A stretch of DNA of 45,438 nt from Candidatus Poribacteria bacterium (lineage in GTDB: Bacteria > Poribacteria > WGA-4E > WGA-3G), in assembly GCA_022822085.1 (NCBI GenBank), contig JAJECK010000152.1, positions 1 to 45,438 of the forward strand. Direction: 5' to 3'. Within the stretch, counting starts at the first letter, position 1, and each line of letters begins with the position of its first letter. Shown piece by piece: positions 7,908-37,550 of the stretch. The notes beneath the pieces were generated by a model, which did not search any database, was not told where the DNA came from, and saw nothing but the letters and a program-made list of their open reading frames with translations. The position numbers were made by a program, and so were the translations under genes.

Positions 7908-9179
7908 ATGAAAGTTACAGATATAGAACGGACTTTAGTTGATGTTCCATTCACACCGCGCCAACAAGAGATAACTACTACCAGCGTCTCAACAGTTTAC
8001 AATTGGTCTCTCCTTGAACTGTGTAAAGTTACAACAGATACAGGACACATTGGATGGGGTGAAACCGTAATCCACTATACCTATAGTCGTGTAAGCGATG
8101 GTAGTGTGGAACGTGTTCTTGGGAAAAGTCCGGCACTACACATGAACGATGATTCTCTCGGTGCAGGATTGCAGATCGCACTCTTTGATGTTGTTGGGAA
8201 AATCTTGGAAGTGCCAGTACATAAGCTTCTTGGCAATAAATGTCGTGACGAAGTACCTATCTCATGGTGGAGCATTGACTCATCACCAGAAAATTGGGCA
8301 GCAGAAGCAGCAGATTCAGTGTCAAAGGGTTACACCAGTTTCAAAAACAAACCGCGTCCGTGGTGGGATATTGTTCAGCAGGTAGAGGCAGTCGCAGAAG
8401 TCGTTCCAAACGACTACAAATTGGATCTTGATCCAAACGCTTGTTTACGTGATGCAGAAACCGCAATCCCTTTGTTACAGAAACTCGCAGCACATCCAAA
8501 TGTAGCAATCTTCGAATCACCTATCCCACAAAATGATGTAGAGGGCAACAAGCAGATACGGCAGGAAGTTGAGTGTCCAATTGCTATGCATTTTGGTTCA
8601 CCGCCTTATACAACATGTATCAAAGAAGATGTGTGCAATGGATTTGTAATCGGTGGCGGTAAATCTCGGACGATGTCCGACGGATACCTTAGTGCAGCAG
8701 CAGATATGCCTTTCTGGCTTCAGATAGTCGGAAATGGATTGACATCCACATGGGCTGCACATCTCGGTAGCGTTCTAACACATGCGACTTGGCCCGCAAT
8801 TACTTGCCTTAATCTTTACAGTGATCATCTCATCACAAAGCCGATTGAAGTATCAGAAGGATGTCATACTGTTCCTGATGCACCAGGATTAGGTGTAGAG
8901 GTAGATGAAGATGCAGTAGAAAAGTTCCGCGTCCCTGATGAGGAATTAGATGATGATGGATATACCATACACCCACATCCTCGTCTTATAAAAACTGCAG
9001 TCTATCCTGACGGGAGTTGTATCCACATGGCAGGTGACGGATTGAGTTATTTCAATGCAGGTAATGGAGATGCTTATGTTGAAGGAGCACGACTTGAATT
9101 GACTTATGATGATGGGACAAAGGAGTGGTCAGATTTATATGAGAAAGCATTAGAAAAACCTGTGCATGCACAATGGTAA
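7908..9179 (+). CDS. Enolase-superfamily protein with incomplete metal site
   Basis: A 423-residue protein of the mandelate racemase/muconate lactonizing enzyme family. It has an N-terminal capping domain (about 1-115), a TIM barrel and an unusual C-terminal extension (about 330-423). Present are a KxK-type pair (Lys146 and Lys148 in SFKNKP), a first metal ligand (Asp175 in LDPN) and a second (Glu203 in FESP). At the expected third ligand the sequence is PIAMHFG (224-230), where the family usually has PIAxDE or PIAxGE. The usual second-base lysine before the glycine-rich turn also looks absent (CNGFVIGGG). It may be a diverged enzyme with altered metal binding or a non-catalytic member. The substrate is unknown. 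It has its own promoter and is followed by a repeat cluster. Confidence 0.8.
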   Translation: MKVTDIERTLVDVPFTPRQQEITTTSVSTVYNWSLLELCKVTTDTGHIGWGETVIHYTYSRVSDGSVERVLGKSPALHMNDDSLGAGLQIALFDVVGKILEVPVHKLLGNKCRDEVPISWWSIDSSPENWAAEAADSVSKGYTSFKNKPRPWWDIVQQVEAVAEVVPNDYKLDLDPNACLRDAETAIPLLQKLAAHPNVAIFESPIPQNDVEGNKQIRQEVECPIAMHFGSPPYTTCIKEDVCNGFVIGGGKSRTMSDGYLSAAADMPFWLQIVGNGLTSTWAAHLGSVLTHATWPAITCLNLYSDHLITKPIEVSEGCHTVPDAPGLGVEVDEDAVEKFRVPDEELDDDGYTIHPHPRLIKTAVYPDGSCIHMAGDGLSYFNAGNGDAYVEGARLELTYDDGTKEWSDLYEKALEKPVHAQW

Positions 9180-9390
9180 GTTGATATAATAACCCATAAG
9201 CGTCAATTTAAGAATATGTCCGCAAAGTAGTCCGCACACTCCGTGTGCCGTTCACGATAATAAGTTTTCAGAAAGTAGTTTGCGGATGCCGTGTGCCGTG
9301 ATCTTTTCGCTTACGGACGGCACACGGAGTGTGCCTGCTACCTTTAAATTTCCGCTAAATTGATGCCTATAGGTAAGTTGATATAATAAC
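9175..9390. repeat. Palindromic element, family D, flanked by 19-bp direct repeats
   Basis: GGTAAGTTGATATAATAAC occurs perfectly at 9175-9193 and 9372-9390. Between them, 9194-9371 is a palindromic unit: the core GCACACTCCGTGTGCCGT faces ACGGCACACGGAGTGTGC, and the outer arms CATAAGCGTCAATTTA and TAAATTGATGCCTATAG also match. The left direct repeat includes the TAA stop of the enolase-superfamily gene. The layout is what insertion with a long target duplication, or duplicated recombination sites, would leave. Confidence 0.8.
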
Positions 9391-9643
9391 GTGAGTTGCC
9401 ACCTATGTAGCACAAACTTCATGAAGATTAATTTATTAATTGGGTAATGTTCGGGCGGGGAAACCCCGCCCCTACAGTATCATTTAAGGAATGAATTACC
9501 GAAATAATTATTTAAACTTCATCCAGTTTGTGTCATAAGCGCGCAAACTGAAGTGGACGCTACGATAATTGCGAATAATAAGCGTTTCTCAAATAAAAAC
9601 AGGATATACGTGTCTAAAATCTTGTCCGTAGCAACTTGGGTTA
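9387..9643. repeat. Palindromic element, family E copy 1
   Basis: The ends are TAACGTGAGTTGCCAC (9387-9402) and GTAGCAACTTGGGTTA (9628-9643), 12 of 16 positions complementary. Inside is a second palindrome (9410-9533) with arms around CACAAACTTCATGAAG and a GC-rich hairpin, GGGCGGGG-aaa-CCCCGCCC (9453-9471). A related, shorter copy lies at 14617-14769. Confidence 0.7.
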
Positions 9644-9700: not shown

Positions 9701-9874
9701 TAACGTGAGTTTGATAAAAGAATTTATTTTGATAGGATGGACACATTCCCCCCTTGATAAGGGGGTTTAGGGGGGTAAAAGGTGTTATTTCCGTGATTTA
9801 ACCCCCTTTATCCCCTTATCAAGGGGACTTTAAGAGGAATGCGTCTGCCCTGTCCTATTATCAAACTCACGTTA
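9701..9874. repeat. Palindromic MITE-like element, family A copy 2
   Basis: A 174-bp copy of the element at 126-300, with TAACGTGAGTTTGAT and ATCAAACTCACGTTA ends and the same internal CCTTGATAAGGGG and CCCCTTATCAAGGGG hairpins. Its right end lies 2 bp from the stop codon of the minus-strand lipoprotein gene. A free-standing inverted half, AACTCACGTTA at 9682-9692, pairs with its left end. Confidence 0.88.
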
Positions 9875-9876
9875 TT

Positions 9877-37412: not shown

Positions 37413-37550
37413 ATAACGTGAGTTTGATAAAAGAATTCAATTTGATAGGTCAGATACATTCACCCTTGATAAGGGGTAAGGATTTAAAGTGCTATTTCAG
37501 TCTTCTAACCCCTCCATCCCCCTTAGCAAGGGGAATGTGTAAGTCCTGTA
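37413..37550. repeat. Palindromic MITE-like element, family A copy 3 (eroded)
   Basis: The left end ATAACGTGAGTTTGAT begins 1 bp after the TAG of the first LamG gene. Internal CCCTTGATAAGGGG and CCCTTAGCAAGGGG arms match the other copies, but the outer right end is lost after about 37550. It separates the two LamG genes and probably works as a terminator or processing site. Confidence 0.82.

Follow-up and report, generated by a model that had tools for sequence, protein, structure and literature searches.

The 19-bp perfect direct repeat that brackets a palindromic element in a 45,438-nucleotide contig of Candidatus Poribacteria (the window, analysed here at its full length) is, judged by comparison with relatives and with other copies of the element, a true target-site duplication and not the outcome of recombination between old repeats. 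The element, a non-autonomous MITE, was very probably moved by an IS4-type transposase that would cut the two target strands about two helical turns apart, with a preference for symmetric, often hairpin-forming sites.

The repeat (GGTAAGTTGATATAATAAC) lies on the forward strand at 9175-9193 and 9372-9390, its only two copies in the whole window on both strands, and it brackets the palindromic element exactly, as the initial annotation had stated (Table 1). That element is real, and its length, first given as 178 bp, is refined to 177 bp (9195-9371) by terminal symmetry (the termini read CATA...TATG) and by unambiguous copies elsewhere that start at CATA (for example, the sister element L182 in G010). 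By analogy with unambiguous copies, the duplication itself was set at 20 bp (9175-9194 and 9372-9391), with a single mismatch at the last base (C/G); given the junctions of the dispersed repeat family E elsewhere, the C at the end of the left copy may be the older base. Two further details of the initial annotation were confirmed: the left copy contains the TAA stop codon (9177-9179) of the enolase-superfamily ORF at 7908-9179, the reading frame of which is unchanged because the duplication includes its stop codon, and the right copy continues into family E, into the tip of which the MITE is inserted. Elsewhere in the genome the left edge of family E is in most cases TAAC-CTAAG or TAAC-TCAAG, and the GGTAAG of the window repeat is part of the gene end, outside family E. 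Repeat length alone proves nothing here, as the window holds 29 other distinct perfect 19-mer repeats, contributed by a small number of dispersed and tandem repeats; what sets this 19-mer apart from chance is that it abuts both element ends and that further element copies are bracketed likewise, by different sequences.

Table 1. Features of the MITE insertion and its surroundings in the window.
Feature	Position	Strand	Remarks
Upstream enolase-superfamily gene, 423 aa	7908..9179	+	Pfam MR_MLE_C
Target-site duplication, left copy GGTAAGTTGATATAATAACC	9175..9194	+	20 bp; first 19 equal the right copy
Non-autonomous MITE, 177 bp	9195..9371	.	No listed ORF inside; strongly self-complementary
Left terminal inverted repeat CATAAGCGTCAATTTA	9195..9210	+	Matches intact IS ends
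Internal inverted-repeat arm, CCGCACACTCCGTGTGCCGT core	9224..9251	+	Pairs with 9317-9344
Partner arm of internal inverted repeat	9317..9344	+	86% complementary
Right terminal inverted repeat TATAGGCATCAATTTA	9356..9371	-	Outermost base is T where most other copies have C
Target-site duplication, right copy GGTAAGTTGATATAATAACG	9372..9391	+	Continues into family E
Dispersed repeat family E, TATAATAAC...AGTTGCCACCTATGTAGCACAAACTTCATGAAGATTAATTTATTAATT...	9382..9445	+	~50 genome matches, E <= 1e-3

The surroundings of the insertion are themselves rich in repeats. Family E (TATAATAAC...AGTTGCCACC...TGTAGCACAAACTTCATGAAGATTAATTTATTAATT) is a dispersed element distinct from the MITE. Its left edge (TAAC) follows variable AT-rich sequence, which suggests that family E itself inserts at an AT-rich site. 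An unbroken GGGCGGGGAAACCCCGCCCC hairpin, of a type that serves this element family as a target, lies at 9455-9475, some 65 bp downstream of the right duplication. Additional dispersed repeats with TCAAACTCACGTTAT / TAACGTGAGTTTGATAAAA ends (274-300 and 9849-9875; 9701-9724 and 37414-37437) are probably the 'family A' ends named in the initial annotation.

Across the host genome (5.63 Mb in 158 contigs), approximately 16 full-length MITE copies were recovered at 83-92% identity, along with many fragments. In relatives most matches were partial and fell largely on the internal hairpin core, which is dispersed there on its own. The flanks of the host copies revealed fixed ends (CATARGYRTCAATTTA), inverted at both termini. 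With at most one mismatch, CCYATARGYRTCAATTTA occurred at 129 places in the genome (65 forward and 64 reverse) and its reversed control pattern at none, and other miniature elements of ~105-410 bp are bounded by the same ends. The window element folds as DNA at -35.4 kcal/mol (z = -5.9 relative to shuffles), and a search of Rfam returned no match for it. It is short, non-coding and multi-copy, with terminal inverted repeats, and its flanking duplications vary between copies, all as in a MITE. Specifically, a survey of the other copies, as the initial annotation had proposed, found that 24 of the 43 well-bounded host elements carry direct flanking repeats of their own, of 19 bp (14 elements), 20 bp (8) or 18 bp (2), with lengths ambiguous by 1-2 bp where CC/GG is common to target and element at the junction; when the left and right flanks of the same 43 elements were re-paired at random in 1000 trials, the mean was 2.6 and the maximum 8.

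For a parent element, we searched the host genome with the Pfam DDE_Tnp_1 profile and obtained 12 matches, only one of which (L096, on contig C131) has element ends in the right arrangement; the others are not flanked by such ends and were set aside. This intact IS is 1451 bp long, has the ends CATAGGTGTCAACTTAAG and encodes a 428-aa transposase that matches NCBIfam transpos_IS4_1 (NF033592; E = 5e-63, 213 bits, cut-off 115) and Pfam DDE_Tnp_1 (PF01609; E = 2e-24, 87 bits). MITE and IS ends match over 16-18 bp and differ in the host genome as AATTTAAG in the MITE versus AACTTAAG in the intact IS, so the immediate parent of the MITE may be a sister IS that was lost or left unassembled. Full-length relatives of the transposase, at 41-91% identity, are present in genomes of Candidatus Poribacteria, a phylum for which our literature search on insertion sequences found nothing relevant. 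Intact IS relatives in general are flanked by duplications of 17-20 bp; for example, five near-identical intact copies in one chromosome (OX638352.1) have duplications of 20, 20, 20, 19 and 20 bp. An intact IS in OX638352.1 (L246) measures 1767 bp, with apparently ~300 bp extra near its right end and a 20-bp duplication still at its outer edges.

Such lengths depart from the IS4 family as described, which is defined by a duplication of about one helical turn together with the YREK motif, Y-(2)-R-(3)-E-(6)-K (PMC2266710), and in which duplications range from 7 to 13 bp by subgroup, with 10-12 bp for IS231 (PMC2266710, Table 1); against this published range, the 19 bp of the window repeat is indeed unusually long, as the initial annotation held. 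The transposases share the family's single ORF without frameshift (428-460 aa), whereas the flanking duplications span 17-20 bp and the YREK motif is incomplete in the Poribacterial proteins, where R, E and K are kept and the tyrosine is replaced by V, F, I or A; Methylobacter and Chlorohelix relatives retain the tyrosine. In a tree of transposases, those of Poribacteria, Chloroflexota (Herpetosiphon and Chlorohelix) and Methylobacter form one clade with 100/100 support, and the members of this clade that could be read have repeats of 17-20 bp (20-21 bp in Herpetosiphon and exactly 20 bp in Chlorohelix). Bacteroidota relatives outside the clade (that is, separated by the 100/100 branch, the tree being rooted at its midpoint) have duplications of 9-11 bp, and the 9-bp cases (L253, L262 and L263) are likewise centred on hairpin loops. 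These patterns point to a known kind of element with an unexplained double-turn stagger, the latter deduced from sequence.

Many targets are REP-like hairpins (for example, GGGCGGGGAAACCCCGCCC, GGTAGAGCGAAGCGAAACC and GTGCGGTTAGGAAACCGCAC) that also stand alone elsewhere, one type having 32 near-matches in the genome, a few of them beside elements. With the axis at the duplication centre, targets were complementary at an average of 7.5 of 14 symmetric pairs (background, 3.6); a half-base shift of the axis lowered this value to 4.4-4.6 of 14. Symmetry is weak in the window target (7 of 14 positions) and almost absent from those of L182 and L203 (3 of 14), and these also gave 19-20 bp, so a hairpin appears to be preferred, not required. 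Target copies were in direct orientation in 38 and inverted in 12 of the 75 elements examined, relative to about 4 of each for re-paired flanks, in genomes that are mostly metagenome-assembled, such that some flank pairs may be products of assembly or recombination and some of the 12 inverted calls may be due to chance. In about one-quarter of recognizable cases, then, the two target copies are inversely oriented, and such pairs look like hairpin flanks with the loop of one copy turned round (inverted scores were high, 16-20, in L017 (20/20), L020, L096, L249, L250, L264, L269 and L270). Inverted flanks of 15-20 bp, perfect or nearly so, were also seen in L264 (Saprospiraceae), L269 (Bacteroidales) and L270 (Chromatiaceae); as these IS relatives lie outside Poribacteria, target-copy inversion is not peculiar to the host genome. 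Of the 75 element-like pairs, 24 lack a flanking repeat of 17-20 bp, whether direct or inverted; the short-duplication group is among these, and the rest may include recombinants or false end-pairs.

The main rival reading takes its start from these hairpins: acting on a hairpin or cruciform that has been extruded, the transposase would attack both stem-loops at their 5' feet and duplicate the whole hairpin, such that duplication length would equal hairpin size, with no fixed stagger. In many copies the duplication is exactly one whole hairpin (GTGCGGTTAGGAAACCGCAC, 20 bp; GTGCGGTTAGAAACCACAC, 19 bp; L109 and L235, 17 bp), length parity tracks the palindrome because the best axis sits at offset 0 in most targets, the inverted flank copies suggest loop flipping in a hairpin intermediate, and a structure-dependent route has been drawn hypothetically by Wan et al. 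as 'pathway b' of IS1272 (PMC5678879). However, 19-20 bp is also the length at targets with little symmetry or none (the window, ATTACAATCCTTAGATACAC in L182, GGGGGTCGAAAAGTTGCAC in L240 and GTTTGCTCATAGTTTTCCC in L203), L109 and L037 differ (17 and 19 bp, respectively) at hairpins of one type, and beyond the long-duplication clade, relatives at hairpins duplicated only 9 bp (L253, L262 and L263). Because non-palindromic targets yield the same length, they argue against cruciform targeting as the sole mechanism, which we regard as unlikely. More doubtful still is the wider proposal that a deep IS4-like clade (Poribacteria, Chloroflexota and Gammaproteobacteria) recognizes extruded hairpins, attacks both feet, duplicates the whole stem-loop and resolves the intermediates either way; if true, this would be structure-guided, flip-flop DDE transposition that leaves target copies directly or inversely repeated.

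The best proof of target duplication is, in the alignments at hand, the G010 sister site, which is single-copy when empty: the L182 element has an exact, non-palindromic 20-bp duplication (ATTACAATCCTTAGATACAC) on both sides, and relatives without it (L314, L315, L317 and L320) carry one homologous copy of ATTACAATCCTTAGATACAC in continuous alignment. The host has a different insertion of ~180 bp (L310; G000:C101, near 20912) at the place occupied by the L182 element in G010, between the same two genes, so the gap was hit independently in the two genomes. At the window site, the empty-site comparison that had been proposed succeeded in part: a single homologue of the 19-mer (GGTAAATTGATAAATATATAG) follows the stop in the nearest relative, but family E is absent there, making this an imperfect empty site that is supportive only. 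In 15 relatives with an orthologue of that gene, the alignment extends through the stop codon and no further; family E is absent from the relatives. At L029 (GGTGTCACTTGCGAAAAAC) the comparison is blurred, the target hairpin itself being absent or diverged in relatives. The initial annotation had offered two origins for the repeat, namely an unusual insertion mechanism and recombination between two existing repeats. The latter, in which the element would have come to lie between two older copies of a dispersed repeat, might draw on the overlap of the 19-mer with the family E end and on the many REP hairpins in the genome, but GGTAAG derives from the gene end and not from family E, each copy has its own matched flanks at a frequency far above re-paired controls, relatives have the sister target of G010 only once and, at the window site, none of them has two copies after the stop; the empty-site alignments contradict recombination, which is highly improbable and was rejected, whereas insertion with target duplication gains support from the different 18-20 bp repeats at other copies and from the single-copy sister site. 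Least credible of all is spread as a REP/REPIN-type unit by a RAYT (HUH) single-strand transposase with repeats arising by chance, which we rejected because, despite the strong palindromic fold and a genome rich in short palindromes, the element combines fixed terminal inverted repeats common to a DDE-transposase IS with target duplications, which HUH single-strand transposition is not known to make.

Among known systems, the IS231 subgroup of IS4 (including MIC231 cassettes) is similar in its IS4-type DDE transposase, single ORF and IS length of ~1.45 kb. IS231A prefers GGG-N5-CCC targets, compared with targets here that often have GG...CC at their edges. The parental end CATAGGTGTCAACTTAAG fits every stated position of the IS231 end consensus, CAT-N7-AA-N2-TAA (PMC2266710). 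Unlike IS231, with its duplications of 10-12 bp, the present elements duplicate 17-20 bp and their Poribacterial members lack the YREK tyrosine; the transposases also group apart from the plasmid IS4-type sequences compared (Priestia and Klebsiella). IS1272 (IS1182 family) likewise targets inverted repeats or potential stem-loops (PMC5678879), but there the target hairpin is deleted, whereas here it is kept and present twice and the parent transposase fits the IS4 model; IS1182/IS1272 stem-loop replacement was therefore rejected, as the target hairpin is not lost. Long target duplications (16-28 bp) also occur in members of the IS1202 group, but the ISAjo2 group of that family has 5'-TGT...ACA-3' ends and a TnsB-like transposase with two HTH domains, and we rejected this assignment given the CATA...TATG ends and IS4-type transposase here. 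IS1549 and IS1634 (IS1634 family) make long direct repeats within an IS4-related family (PMC2266710), of 8 to 514 bp compared with 17-20 bp here, and this family was rejected because the IS1634 model scored 34 bits against a cut-off of 100. Finally, among REP-targeting ISs, copies of ISRm22 (IS4 family) sit in REP elements, but the duplication reported for the IS4Sa subgroup is 8-10 bp (PMC2266710), and the available portion of the description mentions none of 19-20 bp.

Returning to the favoured reading of an IS4-type insertion with a two-turn stagger, we infer the stagger, the mobilization in trans and the loop flip from these comparisons, and the steps would be as follows. The MITE would be mobilized in trans by an IS4-type DDE transposase; an intact 1.45-kb IS whose ends are of this kind is still present in the genome. 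Paired transposase would cut the target strands 19-20 bp apart, a distance of approximately two helical turns where one is usual, the 3' ends of the element would be joined at the staggered cuts, and gap repair would produce the direct repeat. REP-like palindromes would be preferred because two subunits read symmetric half-sites (GG...CC), and inverted flank copies would probably arise when a hairpin loop flips, either during or after insertion. In the window, insertion would have struck a weakly symmetric site made of the last codons of the gene and the tip of family E, and the duplication would have regenerated the stop codon of the upstream gene.

Duplication length reflects the spacing at which the two active sites of a transposase meet the target, and the long-duplication clade and the 9-11 bp Bacteroidota relatives, with similar ends and hairpin-centred targets, form a natural pair in which to study what determines the stagger. 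The inverted target copies, a minor phenomenon as yet unexplained, are open to experiment. More broadly, these elements show how, in a phylum of uncultured sponge symbionts, REP-like palindromes come to serve mobile elements as platforms.
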